A DNA stretch of 64,000 bases. Source: Wenzhouxiangella sediminis. Lineage in GTDB: Bacteria; Pseudomonadota; Gammaproteobacteria; Xanthomonadales; Wenzhouxiangellaceae. Below the pieces are notes generated by a model, which saw only the letters and a list, made by a program, of their open reading frames with translations, did not search any database and had not been told where the DNA came from. The translations under genes and the position numbers were made by a program. Below are positions 24,752 to 34,837 of this stretch, one piece after another (positions within the stretch are counted from its first letter, which is position 1; each line of letters opens with the position of its first letter). The stretch is from the NCBI RefSeq assembly GCF_003410055.1, contig NZ_QUZK01000014.1:62001-126000 (forward strand), in the 5' to 3' direction.

Positions 24752-27115
24752 GTGTCCGAGTATATCCTTTGGCTCGATGAGCTTGGTATGGGCGACCTGG
24801 AAAAGGTCGGTGGCAAGAATGCGTCGCTGGGTGAAATGATCACCCACCTGAAGGATCTCGGGGTCAACGTACCCGGCGGATTCGCGACCACGGCCGAGGC
24901 GTTCCGCAATTTCCTCGAACAGTCCGGGCTGGCCGAGCGCATCGGCAAGGCCCTCGACGAACTCGATGCCGACGATACCCGCGCGCTGGCGAAGACCGGC
25001 GGCGAGATCCGGCAGTGGATCATGGACACGCCCCTGCCCGATGACCTCGAACAGGCCATCCGCGAGGCCTACGCCAAGATACAGGAACGCTACGGCAAGG
25101 ACCTGGCGGTGGCCGTTCGCTCCTCGGCGACCGCCGAGGACCTGCCGGATGCCTCCTTCGCCGGCCAGCAGGAGACCTTCCTCAACGTCTGCGGCATCGA
25201 GGCGGTGCTCGAGAAGATTCACGCCGTGTTCGCCAGCCTCTACAACGACCGCGCCATCGCCTACCGCGTCCACCAGGGCTTCGCTCACGCCGACGTGGCC
25301 CTGTCGGCCGGGATCCAGCTGATGGTGCGCGCCGGCTCCGGCGCCGCCGGCGTCCTGTTCACGCTCGATACCGAATCCGGCTACCGCGATGTGGTCTTCA
25401 TCACCTCCAGCTACGGCCTGGGTGAGTCGGTTGTCCAGGGTGCCGTCAACCCCGACGAGTTCTACCTGTTCAAGCCCAACCTGCGCGCCGACAAGCCCGC
25501 CGTGTTGCGCCGCACGATCGGCACCAAGGCCACGCGCATGATCTACGGCGACGGCGAATCCGGCGGCGTGCACACCGAGGACACGCCGGAGGCGGAGCGC
25601 CAGCGGTTCTCGATCAGCGATGCCGAGGCGACCGAGCTGGCGAAAATGGCGCTGACCATCGAGGACCACTACGGACGCCCGATGGACGTCGAATGGGGCA
25701 AGGACGGGGAAACCGGGGAACTTTTCATCCTCCAGGCCCGCCCGGAGACGGTCAAGAGCCGCGCGGGGCAGACCATGGAGCGGTTCAAGCTCGAATCCAC
25801 CGGGCAGGTGCTGGCCGAAGGCCGTGCGATCGGCCAGCGCATCGGCCAGGGCAAGGCCCGGGTGATCGAATCGCTCGAACAGATTCACGAAGTCGAGGAA
25901 GGTGACGTCCTGATCACCGACATGACCGATCCCGACTGGGAGCCCGTGATGAAGCGCGCCGCGGCCATCGTCACCAACCGGGGCGGAAGGACCTGCCATG
26001 CCGCCATCATCGCGCGAGAACTCGGCATCCCGGCCGTGGTCGGCTGCGGCGACGCCACCGAGCGTGTTCCGCACGCCTCCGAGGTCACGGTCTCCTGCAG
26101 CGAAGGCGACACCGGCCGCATCTACGAGGGGCAGCTCGAGTTCAGCGTCAGCGAGGACTCGCTCGACGACATGCCCGAGGCCCCGCTCAAGATCATGATG
26201 AACGTCGCCAATCCGGACCGGGCCTTCGACTTCGCCCTGATCCCGAACCACGGCATCGGCCTGGCGCGCCTGGAGTTCATCATCAATCGGATGATCGGCA
26301 TTCATCCACTGGCCCTGCTCGACTACGACGGCCAGAGCGACGAGGTCCGGGCCGAAATCGACCGGCGCACCGCCGGATACGACGATCCGGTCAGCTTCTA
26401 CGTCGACAAACTTGCCGAGGGCATCGCCACGATTGCCGCACCTTTCGGACCCAACCCCGTCATCGTGCGCCTGTCGGACTTCAAGTCCAACGAATACGCC
26501 AACCTGATCGGCGGCGATCGTTACGAGCCCGACGAGGAGAACCCGATGATCGGCTGGCGCGGCGCTTCACGCTACGTCGACGAGAATTTCCAGCCGGCGT
26601 TCGAGCTCGAATGTCGCGCCATGAAGAAAGTGCGCGAGGAGATGGGCCTGGATCACGTTTGGGCCATGGTGCCCTTCGTGCGCACTGTTGGCGAAGCGTC
26701 GGATGTCGTAGCCGTAATGGACAAGTTCGGCCTAAAGCGCGGCGAGAACGGCCTGAAGATCATCATGATGTGCGAATTGCCGTCCAACGCCCTCAACGCC
26801 GAAGCCTTCCTGGACTATTTCGACGGCTTCTCGATCGGCTCCAACGACATGACCCAGCTCACCCTGGGCCTGGACCGCGACTCCGGCCTGGTCGCCCACC
26901 GATTCGACGAACGCGACCCCGCGGTCAAGGCGATGCTGGCGATGGCCATCGAGGCCTGCCGCAAGCAGGGCAAGTACATCGGGATCTGCGGCCAGGGGCC
27001 TTCGGACTATCCGGACCTGGCCGAGTGGCTGATGGACCAGGGTATCGAGAGCATGTCGCTCAACCCCGACACGGTGGTCGACACCTGGCGCAAGCTGGCC
27101 GCACACCGGCGTTAG
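24752..27115 (+). CDS. ppsA: Phosphoenolpyruvate synthase
   Basis: Makes PEP, AMP and Pi from pyruvate and ATP for gluconeogenesis. The 787-residue protein starts at GTG 24752 after a GGGGAG SD. Domains in order: N-terminal ATP-grasp ([25 protein letters not shown]), the mobile phosphohistidine domain with H416 in [14 protein letters not shown], and the C-terminal TIM barrel with the catalytic Cys in the segment [20 protein letters not shown]. The stop codon TAG is itself the start of the repeat island at 27111. Regulated by PpsR, encoded divergently. Confidence 0.98.
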
Positions 27116-27263
27116 CTGGTTAGCTGGTTAGCTGGTTGGCTGGTTGGCTGGTTGGCTGGTTAAGCAATCGTCACGGCTGGCGACGATTCTGTCACGACGA
27201 AGTCGTCCCGCGTTGTTGGCAGTTTCCGAACCAGCAAACGAGCGAACGAGCTAACCAGCCAAC
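27111..27263. repeat. Intergenic inverted quasi-tandem island 3 (GTTAGCTG/GTTGGCTG words)
   Basis: Six exact-length 8-bp units run from 27111 to 27158 (three GTTAGCTG then three GTTGGCTG), overlapping the ppsA stop codon. About 70 bases later, 27229-27263 carries the reverse complement words (AACCAGCAAACGAGCGAACG, then CTAACCAGCC). The island fills the gap between convergent ppsA and orn. Confidence 0.8.
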
Positions 27264-30057: not shown

Positions 30058-31044
30058 ATGTCGCATACCGATTACCGCCTCCCGGCCGAATGGGAGGCAC
30101 AGAGCGCCACCCTGCTCGCCTGGCCGGCCGCCGAATCCGACTGGCGAGGCGTGCTCGACGCCATCAGGGACGAATACCGTCAATTGATAGACGCCGTACG
30201 TAGCTTCCAGCCCGTCGTTCTTCTGGTTCCGCAGGACGAACCCCTGCCCGAAGTCCTCGCCGAAGCCGCCGATCTCCACCCCGTTGCGCTTCGCTACAAC
30301 GACACCTGGTGCCGGGACTACGGTCCGGTCATCATGGTGTTCTCGGGCTACCGCCTGGCCCTGGATTTCCATTTCGACGGATGGGGCGGAAAATACCCGG
30401 CCTCACTCGACAACCGGGTCAACACCCACCTGGCGCGCCACGAACTGTTCGACCGGATGCAGTTCCGCCAGTACCTGTTCGAACTCGAAGGCGGGGCGAT
30501 CGAAAGCGACGGCAGGGGGCGCCTGCTGGTCAACTGGCACTGCCTGCGGGCTCGACACCCCCACCTGACCGAGCGCGAGATCGACTTTGAACTGCACAAC
30601 CTGCTCAACGTCGACAAGGTGCTCGGTATCGACATCGAGCCGATGACGGGTGACGACACGGACGGACACATCGACACGCTGGCCCGCTTCACCGATCACG
30701 ACACGATCGTGTTCCAGACCCAGGGCGAGGACGAGCGAACCGCCCGCCTCCGCGGCCAGCTGGAAACCCTTCGCAACCGCGACGAGAACGAATACCGACT
30801 CGTGGCCCTGCCCTGCCCCGACGACATCGATCCGGGCCTGCCCGCCAGCTACGCGAATTTCCTGTTCGTCAACGACGGCTGCCTGGTACCCGCCTACGGC
30901 AGTCGTCATGACGAGGCGGCCTGCGACATACTCGCCGAGCTGCTTCCCGACCGCCGGATCGTCCAGGTACCGGCCGCCACCATGATCACCCAGTCCGGCG
31001 GACCGCACTGTGCCAGCATGCACATTCCGGCCGCGCTCGGATGA
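30058..31044 (+). CDS. aguA: Agmatine deiminase
   Basis: Hydrolyses agmatine to N-carbamoylputrescine and ammonia; a member of the guanidine-modifying (PPAD) superfamily. The 328-residue protein has the family blocks NDTWCRDYGPV, LEGGAIESDGRG, GDDTDGHIDTLARF with the catalytic His, and the nucleophile C318 in GGPHCASMHIP near the C-terminus. ATG at 30058 overlaps no earlier gene. Its stop overlaps the aguB start by 4 bp, so AguA and AguB form a two-step agmatine-to-putrescine route. Confidence 0.96.
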   Translation: MSHTDYRLPAEWEAQSATLLAWPAAESDWRGVLDAIRDEYRQLIDAVRSFQPVVLLVPQDEPLPEVLAEAADLHPVALRYNDTWCRDYGPVIMVFSGYRLALDFHFDGWGGKYPASLDNRVNTHLARHELFDRMQFRQYLFELEGGAIESDGRGRLLVNWHCLRARHPHLTEREIDFELHNLLNVDKVLGIDIEPMTGDDTDGHIDTLARFTDHDTIVFQTQGEDERTARLRGQLETLRNRDENEYRLVALPCPDDIDPGLPASYANFLFVNDGCLVPAYGSRHDEAACDILAELLPDRRIVQVPAATMITQSGGPHCASMHIPAALG

Positions 31045-31928
31045 GTATGCGTCGCCTCGACATCGCCCTGGTCCAGCACGCCATGGGCCCGGAAGCCGAC
31101 GAAAATCGTGCGGCCACGGCCGATGGAATCGCCCGGGCAGCCGAACTCGGCGCCCAACTGGTGCTGTTGCCGGAACTCCACGCCAGCGAGTATTTCTGCA
31201 AGTATCAGGACCCGGATCTGTTCGACCTGGCCGAGCCGCTCGACGGCCCCACGGCCCGGATGCTCTCGGGTGCCGCGGCCGACCACGGAATCGTCATCGT
31301 GGGCTCGATCTTCGAACACCGTGCCCCGGGCCTGGCGCACAACACGTCGGTGGTCTACGAGCGAGACGGCGAGCTGGCCGGCGTGTATCGCAAGATGCAC
31401 ATCCCCGACGATCCCGGCTACAACGAGAAATTCTATTTCACGCCCGGCGATCTCGGCTTCGAGCCCATCGACACCTCGGTCGGTCGTCTGGGCGTGCTGG
31501 TCTGCTGGGATCAGTGGTATCCCGAAGCCGCCCGCCTGATGACGCTGGCGGGCGCGGAACTTTTGCTCTACCCCACCGCGATCGGTCTCGACCTGGACGA
31601 CGAAGAGCCCGAACAACGGCGCCAGCTCGACGCATGGCGCACGATTCAGCGCTCGCACGCCGTCGCCAATGGTATTCCAATGGCCACCTGCAATCGGGTG
31701 GGCTTCGAACCCGACCGCTCCGGCGGAGAGCGCGAAGCGGAATTCTGGGGCCACAGCTTCGTCGCCGGCCCCCAGGGCGAAGTCCTGGCCGAAGCCGGCA
31801 GCGAGGCCGAGGTGCTTTTCGCCAGCCTGGATCTGGGCCGCTCCGAGCAGGTCCGGCGCCTATGGCCCTTCCTGCGCGACCGCCGCATCGACGCCTACGA
31901 CGACCTCCTCAAGCGCTGGCGGGATTAG
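31041..31928 (+). CDS. aguB: N-carbamoylputrescine amidase
   Basis: Nitrilase-family hydrolase converting N-carbamoylputrescine to putrescine, CO2 and ammonia. The 295-residue protein has the Glu-Lys-Cys triad: Glu in LVLLPELHASEYF, Lys in YRKMHIPDDPGYNEKFYF and C155 in VCWDQWYPEAARL. The start codon overlaps the aguA stop (ATGA). Its end is followed by a non-coding region of 777 bp. Confidence 0.96.
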   Translation: MSMRRLDIALVQHAMGPEADENRAATADGIARAAELGAQLVLLPELHASEYFCKYQDPDLFDLAEPLDGPTARMLSGAAADHGIVIVGSIFEHRAPGLAHNTSVVYERDGELAGVYRKMHIPDDPGYNEKFYFTPGDLGFEPIDTSVGRLGVLVCWDQWYPEAARLMTLAGAELLLYPTAIGLDLDDEEPEQRRQLDAWRTIQRSHAVANGIPMATCNRVGFEPDRSGGEREAEFWGHSFVAGPQGEVLAEAGSEAEVLFASLDLGRSEQVRRLWPFLRDRRIDAYDDLLKRWRD

Positions 31929-31962: not shown

Positions 31963-32046
31963 GGTTTCAGGTTTCAGGTTTCAGGTTTCAGGTTTCAGGA
32001 AAAGCCAAACGCTTGGGGTTCCGAGTTCGGGGTTCGGGGTTCGGGC
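31963..32046. repeat. Intergenic quasi-tandem island 5 (GGTTTCA and GGGTTCG words)
   Basis: Five tandem 7-bp GTTTCAG units at 31963-31998 are followed by a run of GGTTC/GGGTTCG words to 32046. It lies just downstream of aguB and just upstream of the 180-bp repeat array. The rest of 31929-32104 shows no gene. Confidence 0.7.
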
Positions 32047-32237
32047 GGCGAGTTTGGCTCTGGGGGCCGGCTTTGCCGGGGGCGGTGTGGTGCTGCTCTT
32101 GACGGTACGTGAGCATTCCAATCGCCGGAGAAGCGCCGGCAGGGGTCGCAAGACGCGGCCACAGCACCGACGAGGCCAGCCTGAAAGCCGCTCCCCGGCA
32201 CGCTAACACCAATCCCGAAGGGCGATGGATTGTGGTT

Positions 32238-32321
32238 CCTGCCGGTGATGATTGGGTGGATGAAAGCGCAGCGTACTTGGATGTACGTGAGCATTTCATC
32301 CGCGCAATCAGCGCCGGCAGG
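32238..32321. other. Array hairpin A
   Basis: Outer stem CCTGCCGG/CCGGCAGG; copy-specific stem GATTGGGTGGATGAAA (32250-32265) with TTTCATCCGCGCAATC (32294-32309), 14 Watson-Crick pairs, one G-U and one mismatch. Apex GCGTAC-TTGGAT-GTACGT. The word GGATG occurs in the stem and again in the loop. Confidence 0.85.
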
Positions 32322-32417
32322 GGCCGCAAGACGCGGCCACAGCACCGACGAGGCCAGCCCGAAGGCCTTCCCTCGCTCAAATTCGCATTACCCCTCGAAG
32401 GCTGATGGATTGTGGTT

Positions 32418-32501
32418 CCTGCCGGTGATTTCGCGGCGTTCGAAAGCGGAGCGTACTCGAGGGTACGTGAGCATTTCGAGCGACGCGAAAGCGCCGGCAG
32501 G
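32418..32501. other. Array hairpin B
   Basis: Same outer stem; copy-specific stem TTCGCGGCGTTCGAAA (32430-32445) with TTTCGAGCGACGCGAA (32474-32489), 14 Watson-Crick pairs, one G-U and one mismatch. Apex GCGTAC-TCGAGG-GTACGT. The word CTCGA, the complement of the right arm, occurs in the loop. Confidence 0.85.
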
Positions 32502-32597
32502 GGCCGCAAGACGCAGCCCCAGCACCGACGAGGCCAGCCCGAAGGCCATCACTCGCTCAAATTCACAGTGCCCCTCGAAGGCCGATGGATTTTCGTG

Positions 32598-32681
32598 CCT
32601 GCCGGTGATTCTCCGGCGATTGAAAGCGCAGCGTACTGATTGGTACGTGAGCACTTCAATCGCCGGAGAAGCGCCGGCAGG
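32598..32681. other. Array hairpin C
   Basis: Same outer stem; copy-specific stem TCTCCGGCGATTGAAA (32610-32625) with CTTCAATCGCCGGAGA (32654-32669), 15 of 16 paired. Apex GCGTAC-TGATTG-GTACGT. The word GATTG occurs in the stem and again in the loop. Confidence 0.85.
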
Positions 32682-32705
32682 GGCGAAAAGACGCGGCCAC
32701 AGCAC

Positions 32706-34694
32706 TTACCAGTGGATGCCTCGCATCAGGCTCGCGAACGCCACCTGCTCCTGGGTCGGTTTGACCTCGCCTTCTTCGCCGCGGCCCTGCGCCGCAGCCG
32801 AATCCGGGAACATCCGGAAAGCCGAGTTCATGACGATCTCCGAGACCTTGGGCGCGGTGGCGTGCAGGATCTGGGCGAAGATCCCCAGGCGCGTGGCGAT
32901 CCGCTGGGGCCGGTAGATCACCGCCTGCTTGATCATGTCGGCGGCGTCCTCGGGCGTGATCGTGGGCACATGCTCGTAGATCTTGGTGGGCGCGATCATG
33001 GGCGTGCGCACCAGCGGCATGTTGATGGTGGTAAACGACACGCCGGTGTCGGCGAATTCCGACGCGGCGCAGCGCGAGAACGCGTCCAGCGCCGCCTTCG
33101 AAGCCACGTAGGCGGAAAAACGGGGTGCGTTGGACAGCACGCCGATCGAGGAAATGTTGATGACCTGCCCCCGGCCCTGCTCGACCATCGTCGGCAGGAA
33201 GCCCATGATGAGCTTCAGCGAGCCGAAGTAGTTGAGCTGCATCAGCCGCTCGTAGTCATGGAAGCGATCATATGACAGCTGGATCGAGCGACGGATCGAG
33301 CGCCCCGCGTTGTTGATGAGAATATCGACGGCACCGTGATCGGCCAGCACCTGCTCGACCAGTTTCTCGGACTTCTTCATGTCCGACAGGTCGGCGGTGT
33401 AGTAGAAAGCCTTCCCCCCGTCGGCCTCGATCTCCGCCTTGGTTTCCTGCAGCCCTTCCTCGCCGCGGGCGACGATCACGACCCTGGCGCCGGCCTGGCC
33501 CATCATCAGGGCCGTGGCCTTGCCGATACCCGAGGAGGCGCCCGTGATCAATACCACCTTGTCGCGCACCTGACCGGACAGGGACCGATCGATGAACAGC
33601 TCGGGATCGAGGTGGCGCTCCCAGTAGTCCCAGATGACCCAGGCGTAGTCTTCCAGCGGCGGCATGGAGATACCCGACCCCTTCAGCGCTTTCTCGGCAT
33701 CGCGATTGTCGAATCGCGTCGGGTAGCTGAAGAAGCCGAGCATGTCCTTCGGAATTCCGAGATCCTCGAGAACCTGGTTGATGATGCGACGCACCGGCGG
33801 CAGCATCGTCAGACCCTGCTTGACCGGCGCCGGGATGAAGCCGAAAAGCCGCGCGTCGATGCGCATCGACATCAGCGGCGCATGGGCGGCCTGCGCGAAG
33901 AGATTCATGACCTCGCCGATCCGTTTCGGGTTGGGATCGGTCAGGTGGAAACACTGGCCGTCGAGCTTGGGCTTGTGGGCGATGTGATCCATCGCCCGTG
34001 CCACGTAGTCCACCGGAACGATGTTGATCCGGCTTCCTTCCAGCCCCAGGGTCGGCACCCAGGGCGGCAGCATGCGGCGCATCTTCTGGATCAGCTTGAA
34101 GAAGTAGTACGGCCCGTCGATCTTGTCGATCTCGCCGGTCTTCGAGTGGCCCACCACGATTCCGGGCCGATAGATGCGCCACGGAACGGAGCAGGTCCGG
34201 CGCACCAGGCCTTCGGATTCATGCTTGCTGCGGAAATACGGATGCTGGAGCCCGGTCGCCTCTTCGAACATGTCCTCCCGGAAGGTGCCCTGGTAGAGGC
34301 CCGCGGCCGCGATCGACGAGGTGTGGTGAAAGCACTTGGCCTTCACCTTCTCGGCCAGCTGGATTGCGTGCCGGGTTCCCCCGATGTTAGCCGCCTCGTT
34401 GGATTCGGCGTCAGCCGCCAGGTCATAAACGGCAGCCAGGTGGAAGAAATGCCTGATCTTGCCGTCGAGCTTCTCGACGTCGGCCTTTCCGACGCCCAGC
34501 GCCGGCTTGGTGAGGTCTCCGGTCACCGCCACCAGGCGTCGTTTGTGATCCGACCAGCGTTCCGCGACGAGGTCGTTGAATTTCTTCTTCGACCCTCGCC
34601 GAACCAGAACGTAGATCGTCCCCTTGCGCTGGACCAGCTGGTCGATCAGGTTGCGGCCGATGAATCCGGTACCCCCGGTCACGAAATAACTCAT
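32706..34694 (-). CDS. Bifunctional fatty acyl-CoA reductase (fatty alcohol-forming)
   Basis: Predicted to reduce fatty acyl-CoA (or acyl-ACP) to fatty alcohol with NADPH. ATG at 34694 gives 662 residues, close to the roughly 660-residue Marinobacter alcohol-forming reductases. There are two Rossmann modules. The N-terminal one is an extended SDR/NAD_binding_4 type with TGGTGFIGR at residues 6-14 and YFRSK as its YxxxK. The C-terminal one is a classical SDR from about residue 375, with TGASSGIGKA, NNAGRS and YVASK. The upstream codons to 34796 are not needed. It is divergent from an acyl-CoA-binding protein gene and near a wax ester synthase, which supports fatty alcohol formation for wax esters. 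A role as a two-domain epimerase/SDR of other substrate is possible but less likely. Confidence 0.88.
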   Translation of the reverse strand: MSYFVTGGTGFIGRNLIDQLVQRKGTIYVLVRRGSKKKFNDLVAERWSDHKRRLVAVTGDLTKPALGVGKADVEKLDGKIRHFFHLAAVYDLAADAESNEAANIGGTRHAIQLAEKVKAKCFHHTSSIAAAGLYQGTFREDMFEEATGLQHPYFRSKHESEGLVRRTCSVPWRIYRPGIVVGHSKTGEIDKIDGPYYFFKLIQKMRRMLPPWVPTLGLEGSRINIVPVDYVARAMDHIAHKPKLDGQCFHLTDPNPKRIGEVMNLFAQAAHAPLMSMRIDARLFGFIPAPVKQGLTMLPPVRRIINQVLEDLGIPKDMLGFFSYPTRFDNRDAEKALKGSGISMPPLEDYAWVIWDYWERHLDPELFIDRSLSGQVRDKVVLITGASSGIGKATALMMGQAGARVVIVARGEEGLQETKAEIEADGGKAFYYTADLSDMKKSEKLVEQVLADHGAVDILINNAGRSIRRSIQLSYDRFHDYERLMQLNYFGSLKLIMGFLPTMVEQGRGQVINISSIGVLSNAPRFSAYVASKAALDAFSRCAASEFADTGVSFTTINMPLVRTPMIAPTKIYEHVPTITPEDAADMIKQAVIYRPQRIATRLGIFAQILHATAPKVSEIVMNSAFRMFPDSAAAQGRGEEGEVKPTQEQVAFASLMRGIHW

Positions 34695-34837
34695 TGCGGC
34701 ACTCCCTCCGGCATTTATTGTGCTGTACTGCAAAGATACCGATTCGTTCCCGATTCCGCCACCGGTAGCGCGCCGTTGACCCCGTCCGGACGGCATGCTA
34801 GAAAGACTGCCGACAACGAAAAAAGGGAAAGCGAGCG

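Follow-up and report, generated by a model that had tools for sequence, protein, structure and literature searches.

Between two convergent genes of Wenzhouxiangella sediminis lies a tandem array of long hairpins whose inner stems differ from copy to copy yet remain paired. The question raised by this locus is what kind of element forms such an array, and whether its paired stems change under selection or through a mechanism that rewrites both arms together. The window, meaning the whole stretch of DNA that was analysed, comprises 64,000 nucleotides.

Architecture of the hairpin array

TRF on the window identifies a period-180 array of 3.4 copies at 32100–32705, and a repeat search places its units at 32038 (a half copy, 63%), 32216, 32396 and 32576, with steps of 178, 180 and 180, giving three full copies and one half copy of a 180-bp unit on the forward strand. 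The half copy, designated copy 0, retains the right arm only (about 32105–32180, forward strand, from the repeat search and segment comparison), and its stem arm CAATCGCCGGAGA is nearly that of copy 3 by segment comparison. Folding and segment comparison define the three full hairpins, all on the forward strand. Specifically, copy 1 (32232–32327) pairs its inner stem between 32250–32265 and 32294–32310 around an apical core at 32266–32293; copy 2 (32412–32507) pairs 32430–32445 with 32474–32490 around a core at 32446–32473; and copy 3 (32592–32687) pairs 32610–32625 with 32654–32670 around a core at 32626–32653. Their folding z-scores are −9.8, −8.7 and −11.3, and for each copy 0 of 200 shuffles are equally stable, which together with the TRF period of 180 bears out the evenly spaced hairpins of the preliminary description.

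Comparison of the three copy pairs resolves the unit into conserved and divergent segments. The outer stem is constant (10/10 per arm in every pair), the apical core is identical at 23/28 positions in each pair, and the flanks are largely kept, with 20/22, 18/22 and 18/22 on the left and 28/30, 24/30 and 22/30 on the right, the last two values taking in the array end. Identity falls to 7/16, 9/16 and 11/16 in the inner left arm and to 7/17, 9/17 and 10/17 in the inner right arm. The inner stems are thus more divergent than their surroundings while pairing is still kept, as had been claimed from the letters.

The array lies between an aguB-type carbon-nitrogen hydrolase ORF (31041–31928, forward strand) and an acyl reductase-type ORF of 696 aa (32706–34796, reverse strand), both convergent on it and both named by the sequence reader. 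The last base of the array, 32705, directly abuts the TAA stop codon of the acyl reductase (32706–32708, reverse strand, from the ORF call), and the TA of this codon is presumably the target into which the right end was inserted. Other short repeats occur nearby: TRF finds a perfect heptamer tandem repeat, GGTTTCA, with 5.3 copies at 31963–31999, shortly after the end of aguB, with GGGTTCGG repeats coming after it but still ahead of the array, and an 8-mer tandem repeat, GTTAGCTG, with 6.5 copies at 27111–27162, at the end of a 787-aa ORF that is phosphoenolpyruvate synthase-like by eye. Among 25 genomes with the reductase gene, the apical core stands beside it in two (G000 and G016), a count in which one of the other loci was masked and a few had short flanks. 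In G016 (L004, about 1380–1470) the sequence of the second array unit breaks off after CCCCTGCC and gives way to a long palindrome unrelated to it, GTTCCGACGCCGGATCATTC with its inverse.

A dispersed repeat family with compensated stems

A view of the hairpins as peculiar to the array is not borne out: the array is one local cluster of a widespread interspersed hairpin repeat of ~120–150 nt, in which the conserved internal-loop islands GSAG-YGTAC-loop-GTACR-TGAG alternate with compensated stems. The covariance-model search of the genome and its relatives that the description had proposed finds interspersed copies in both. In the own genome, a covariance model of the repeat (R1) reports 17 hits with E <= 1, of which some are the same palindrome read on the other strand. 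With a cut-off of E <= 0.001 it detects the repeat in 26/43 family genomes, one of which has as many as 47 matches, and with E <= 1e-6 in 28/121 genomes of the order. By blastn, relatives of the array occur in 11/61 genomes, singly or in small arrays, at sites that include the region downstream of groEL, the space between atpD and atpC and the vicinity of glnB (names by eye), and these three sites are occupied in more than one species.

In an alignment of 16 copies, the islands are conserved in sequence and the stems in pairing. Changes on both sides are seen in 30 of 39 consensus pairs, against 19.5 in shuffles, with 0/500 shuffles as high; paired cells amount to 93.1%, against 71.1% in shuffles and 35–44% with the partners slid. 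The aligned copies keep their pairing and do not show the random stem mismatches across the genome that the preliminary description had named as evidence against its view. Several Pseudomonas copies carry a compensated apical stem, TTTAC with GTAAA. Among copies at the groEL site of different species, one pair is seen by eye as T-G, C-G and T-A, a series that would be expected of stepwise change under a pairing constraint. Collectively, these comparisons support the view that selection probably maintains stem pairing, or that the element needs it in order to spread.

Tandem amplification recurs within the family, with three copies at 180 bp in locus L065, three at 143 bp in L066 and three matches at 210-bp spacing in genome G034. 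The stems of the L065 and L066 arrays are nearly identical from copy to copy, unlike those of the window array.

Distribution across phyla

An exact scan for the apical core, with one genome per GTDB species, returns at least 118 stretches, against roughly 2 expected by chance (a rough estimate, not a computed value). The 80 loci listed include Rickettsia, Holosporales, Pseudomonas, Legionella, Bacteroidales and Balneolales, as well as Acidobacteria, Deferribacteraceae, Paenibacillus and others, and most of the cross-phylum copies listed fold as long hairpins with the same islands, exceptions being, for example, L096, L099 and L107. A second covariance model, R2, built with 12 pairs only so that its counts are mostly sequence-based, has matches in 9/9 genomes searched. 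At E <= 0.01 the counts are 51 for Rickettsia rhipicephali, 63, 55, 61 and 11 for four Pseudomonas, 23 for Legionella feeleii, 8 for Providencia stuartii and 2 for Serratia silvae; Paenibacillus camelliae has 125, whose best scores are much weaker. Those Pseudomonas and Rickettsia matches that were inspected are the genuine element.

The viral collection contains a single stretch with the core, and viral spread of the repeat was set aside on this count. The plasmid collection gives no match to the Rickettsia query and four records with short matches to the Pseudomonas query, and the E. coli records include five plasmid-borne places. One copy follows an efflux-permease gene on the 330-kb E. coli plasmid pKFu015_1 (L327), which indicates that plasmids can carry the element between strains.

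Occupied and empty sites

Strain-level comparison in E. coli provides the most direct view of mobility. The copies are intergenic, lie in either orientation, with one between divergent genes, and occupy pyrH-frr, rlmKL-ycbX, pheM-pheS, rpsP-ffh, nuoL-nuoM and qseG-qseE in addition to the plasmid. The pyrH-frr site is occupied in 3480 of 5426 E. coli genomes; a sample of 60 rows taken at even steps through the ranking comprises 39 of full length, 20 shorter by 142 bp at 99.6–100% identity and one with a coverage of only 17%. Likewise, rlmKL-ycbX is occupied in 4154/5426 genomes, its empty sites being shorter by 146 bp, and pheM-pheS in 4749/5426, the one empty site examined there having 144 bp less. 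The nuoL-nuoM (709 genomes) and rpsP-ffh (2209 E. coli genomes) sites are polymorphic with flanks that differ too, and qseG-qseE is occupied in 5375 E. coli genomes. The strain phylogeny suggests that the E. coli copies may have been gained rather than lost.

A Rickettsia site compared over 20 loci carries the copy in four and lacks it in 14, the remaining two having no flank match. At this Rickettsia rhipicephali copy (L389, about 380–540), an open frame of 212–296 codons spans the site in 3/4 of the empty relatives checked, whereas no frame across the occupied site exceeds 98 codons. In keeping with MITEs, the element is a short, multi-copy, strain-polymorphic insertion that lacks a gene.

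Ends, putative TA targets and stop codons

Inverted ends bounded by TA can be read by eye in three lineages, and their letters appear to be lineage-specific. Rickettsia copies run from TA-GACNTCTT to AAGANGTC-TA, with TA on both sides in 10/14 read by eye. In Pseudomonas the copies extend from TA-RCAGGCYGTTGAAAAA to the inverse of that sequence (flanked by TA at both ends in 8/11 shown), and E. coli copies run, by eye, from TA-ARAGCC to GGCTC-TA. A regular expression for the end pattern fitted 23/60 fetched copies, and 14 of those it did not fit were inspected separately. Across the cross-phylum copies, paired TA/TA at pair index 59–60 is found in 20/62, against 0–6 at each other outer index; the signal is strong in Rickettsia (16/20), weak in E. 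coli (3/17) and not enriched in the window's own family (7/106), where a separate TA/TA peak of 19 lies at index 41, inside an inner island.

The breakpoints at polymorphic sites vary in how they relate to a TA duplication. Such a duplication is compatible with pheM-pheS given small flank changes, with rlmKL-ycbX, where a 6-nt CTAAGA repeat leaves the breakpoint ambiguous, and with the polymorphic Rickettsia site, which also permits a longer repeat; at pyrH-frr, where ATC is replaced, a TA duplication does not fit.

Among 85 core matches, 57 have an opposing open-frame stop in range at the right, and 14 of these 57 lie 68–71 nt from the apex; a listing over a narrower range gives 32 stops, again with 14 at 68–71 nt, some of whose frames may be spurious. 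The stop is TAA or TAG in 13/14 cases at 68–71 nt and in 14/18 at other distances; since this share is also high at other distances, the evidence lies in the fixed distance and not in the stop type. An element inserted at a stop codon's TA would restore that stop, which would account for the 68–71 nt spacing.

Strand asymmetry, sX9 and a possible role for the host

The right side of the element faces the 3′ end of a gene in 31/38 family copies and 27/36 cross-phylum copies, counted over classifiable copies after setting aside those covered by an ORF in mechanical calls (71/109 family, 21/62 cross-phylum). This orientation is one of the observations that favour a hairpin serving the host as RNA, that is, a 3′-UTR terminator, stabiliser or sRNA source of which sX9 would be the processed product. 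Another is sX9 itself. The 76-nt Rfam model RF02228 (sX9) runs from the apical loop (AUGUAC...CGUACACU) down one arm, the left, on the minus strand; it scores 45.1 against a threshold of 44 at L077:3754-3835 (minus strand), and its matches coincide with element loci, for example G018:C1:993457, G000:C22:13259 and G000:C3:37998. The model reaches threshold in 2/61 relatives and E <= 0.001 in 11/61, and has no match in the window at the gathering threshold. Provided that Rfam is right to list sX9 as an expressed RNA, the strand it covers is transcribed in Xanthomonas. Given the threshold match on a repeat arm in L077, many sX9 annotations may be repeat copies. In the window, matches to miRNA families by Rfam E-value fall far below the gathering scores, and these families were discarded.

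The recurrence of groEL, atpD-atpC and glnB sites in more than one species (names by eye) likewise fits host function. Against this role stand the strain-level presence and absence in E. coli, the high copy number, the occurrence of E. coli copies in either orientation with one between divergent genes, and the Rickettsia copy placed inside the 212–296-codon frame of 3/4 relatives checked. The strand itself also tells against it: wobble and G-A mismatches favour the strand that is not mRNA-sense, Rickettsia excepted. We regard a host-serving RNA as an unlikely account of the element as a whole.

On the written strand, isolated G-T mismatches inside the palindrome exceed A-C mismatches by 158 to 30 at positions 17–35 and by 111 to 47 at positions 36–57, and just outside the palindrome the two are even (44 to 48). 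Beside the apex it is A-C that prevails (69 to 95), at a small number of conserved positions, and there is no bias in Rickettsia (2 to 4; 5 to 6) and little in E. coli (6 to 4; 5 to 3). These counts draw on 211 copies that include close relatives and are not independent. RNA folding energy is lower for the written strand in 59/76 copies, and most classified copies have this strand antisense to the gene on their right. No enrichment of TATAAT-like words is seen in any of four classes of flank and strand (36, 32, 30 and 32 of 76 copies), and antisense promoters left of the element were dropped as a candidate on this basis. Selection may act on folded DNA during transfer, on RNA or on both.

The bias within the palindrome (158 to 30 and 111 to 47, against 44 to 48 just outside) also speaks for an attC-like or REP-like site recombined as folded single-stranded DNA by a site-specific recombinase. 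The absence of the bias in Rickettsia (5 to 6) and its reversal near the apex (69 to 95) weaken this comparison, no cassette array was noticed among the loci inspected, and Y1 transposase has no match in several copy-bearing genomes. The 20–40 bp size and GTAG tag of REPs (PMC3733652) do not fit either, and we consider such a site very improbable.

Divergence of the inner stems and loops

The preliminary description offered selection on, or rewriting of, both arms as the source of the paired divergence. The first part, pairing maintained by selection or because spread depends on it, is supported by the family-wide comparison above; for joint rewriting the evidence points both ways. In the window array the stem change is more block-like and includes the loop, a pattern specific to this array. 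Specifically, the copy 1 loop TTGGAT shares TGGAT with its own left arm, the copy 2 loop TCGAGG shares TCGAG with its own right arm, and the copy 3 loop TGATTG shares GATTG with its own left arm. The shared loop-arm word averages 5.0 in the window copies against 3.1 with shuffled loops, 0/5000 of which are as high, and of 174 copies with loops of at least 5 nt, five show 5-nt sharing, namely the three window copies and 2/171 others. The presence of this sharing in 3/3 window copies makes a joint change of loop and arms possible there.

Such a change, through hairpin copying during replication or through selection for a second loop-arm pairing, is compatible with a mobile palindrome and gains further from the contrast between inner stems that differ at 5–9/16 positions and outer stems that are identical. 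Several observations oppose it: the test of the loop pattern was post hoc, prompted by the pattern itself, and loop-arm words do not exceed those of shuffled loops in any family group (p 0.38–0.98 by group), so that loop-to-stem copying was rejected as a family-wide feature. Moreover, the L065 and L066 arrays have nearly identical stems, and the orthologous groEL-side copies include, by eye, the wobble-bridged pair T-G, C-G, T-A. The right arm of copy 1 is also found beside aguB in G009 (L005), and the alleles are accordingly old enough for slower change. Joint rewriting, even if restricted to the window array, is in our view distinctly unlikely.

The divergence of inner stems and loops may stem from compensatory change, from exchange of whole inner hairpins between copies or from copying within a hairpin. 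If inner hairpins were exchanged by way of the identical outer stems, loop and arms would travel as one and no new mechanism would be needed, but this would not by itself make a loop resemble an arm; copying in a folded hairpin, or selection for a second loop pairing, would do so. No donor of the inner hairpins was found among the sequences examined.

Origin of the array and significance

The element is dispersed, polymorphic among E. coli strains and often separated from a stop codon by a short, constant interval. We therefore favour, with a probability of roughly 0.7, a local tandem amplification in the window of a MITE-like mobile palindrome of about 120–150 nt that lacks a gene. An enzyme acting in trans would recognise the folded strand through its conserved islands and insert copies at TA; recognition through islands would leave the stems free to drift as long as they pair. 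The array would have begun with one copy inserted at the acyl reductase stop codon TAA, and repeat recombination would then have multiplied the 180-bp unit. Local amplification of a mobile palindrome does not predict the loop-arm sharing of the window copies.

Two candidates for the mobilising enzyme, Y1 and IS630-type DDE_3, are absent from G000, do not track copy number and were rejected for lack of correlation with it. DDE_3 occurs in 4/43 family genomes and not in G000, G061, G062 or G063. Membership in the REP/RAYT system is not indicated, with hairpins of at least 96 nt and no Y1_Tnp match in G000, G016, G008 or G009.

A wider reading, which we put forward tentatively and think somewhat unlikely, is that of an ancient class of hairpin mobile elements in E. 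coli, Pseudomonas, Rickettsia, Legionella, Bacteroidales and others. Here a trans-acting enzyme would recognise the folded single strand via G-A type internal loops and insert it at TA, often at stop codons and so without harm to genes. A number of named repeats, together with sX9, would represent pieces or lineage variants of it, and the window hairpin would also be its own template, with loop and arms changing jointly. If true, separately named repeats and an annotated sRNA family would be united in one cross-phylum class, and the frequent annotation of sX9 would be explained. Laboratory strains of E. coli carry copies next to essential genes (pyrH-frr), for which natural strains without them serve as controls; the occupied and empty pyrH-frr strains make mobility, enzyme and effect on neighbours directly testable. 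In addition, stems that drift between fixed islands offer a ready-made data set for studying recognition by structure, and hairpin-templated change may be recorded in the window array.

Comparison with known systems

In the literature searched, with subscription papers mostly outside its coverage, no work was found that unites these copies as one family, and sequence words of the element returned nothing relevant in published papers. The closest named family is sX9 (Rfam RF02228), a Xanthomonas sRNA that matches one arm of the element, has half its length and is treated as a stand-alone sRNA. ERIC also resembles it: the ERIC apex, GGAG-CTTAC-ATAA-GTAAG-TGA, appears similar to the GSAG-YGTAC-loop-GTACR-TGA of the element.

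In the available part of one survey, sX9 ranks among the 20 most prevalent sRNAs in bacteria, a prevalence listing in which it is not presented as a repeat (PMC9029176), and such prevalence is as expected if sX9 is a repeat. In the text available for Herbaspirillum it is merely listed (PMC6337395). ERIC/RU-1 and YPAL/RU-2 are described, in the accessible sections of PMC2759123, as intergenic sequences of about 127–168 bp likened to MITEs, and ERIC is reported to fold as a single long stem-loop (PMC2267715, in part). These repeats belong to enterobacteria and Vibrio (PMC2759123, same sections), whereas the present element spans several phyla with a conserved apex and variable stems; the letters given there for YPAL and RU-3 differ from it by eye.

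Stem-loop families of comparable size and number, likened here by description only, are the R. conorii repeats RPE-5 (115 nt, 55 copies) and RPE-7 (99 nt, 223 copies) in Table 3 of PMC2267715, and RPE-4 and RPE-6 are assigned to the CGTC repeats in the portion available of PMC3733652. According to that portion, GTAG/CGTC REPs and BIMEs are extragenic palindromes of several phyla, often downstream of coding regions, and REP subfamilies carry alternative complementary stem residues (PMC3733652). REPs are, however, units of 20–40 bp with an unpaired GTAG or CGTC tag and stems of 5–13 bp (PMC3733652), whereas the element is one hairpin of ~120–150 nt. Repeats with a tail-to-tail bias are known from P. 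fluorescens (PMC2718517, as excerpted). BoxC is listed as a stem-loop family (PMC2267715, in part) and described as a purine-motif intrastrand triplex sequence (PMC4666352); it was dropped for the E. coli copies on the latter description, and is set apart by description.

With MITEs the element shares its small size, copy number, strain polymorphism and lack of a gene. MITEs are normally recognised through conserved ends. In the present element, by contrast, it is the apex that is conserved, and the ends are specific to each lineage.
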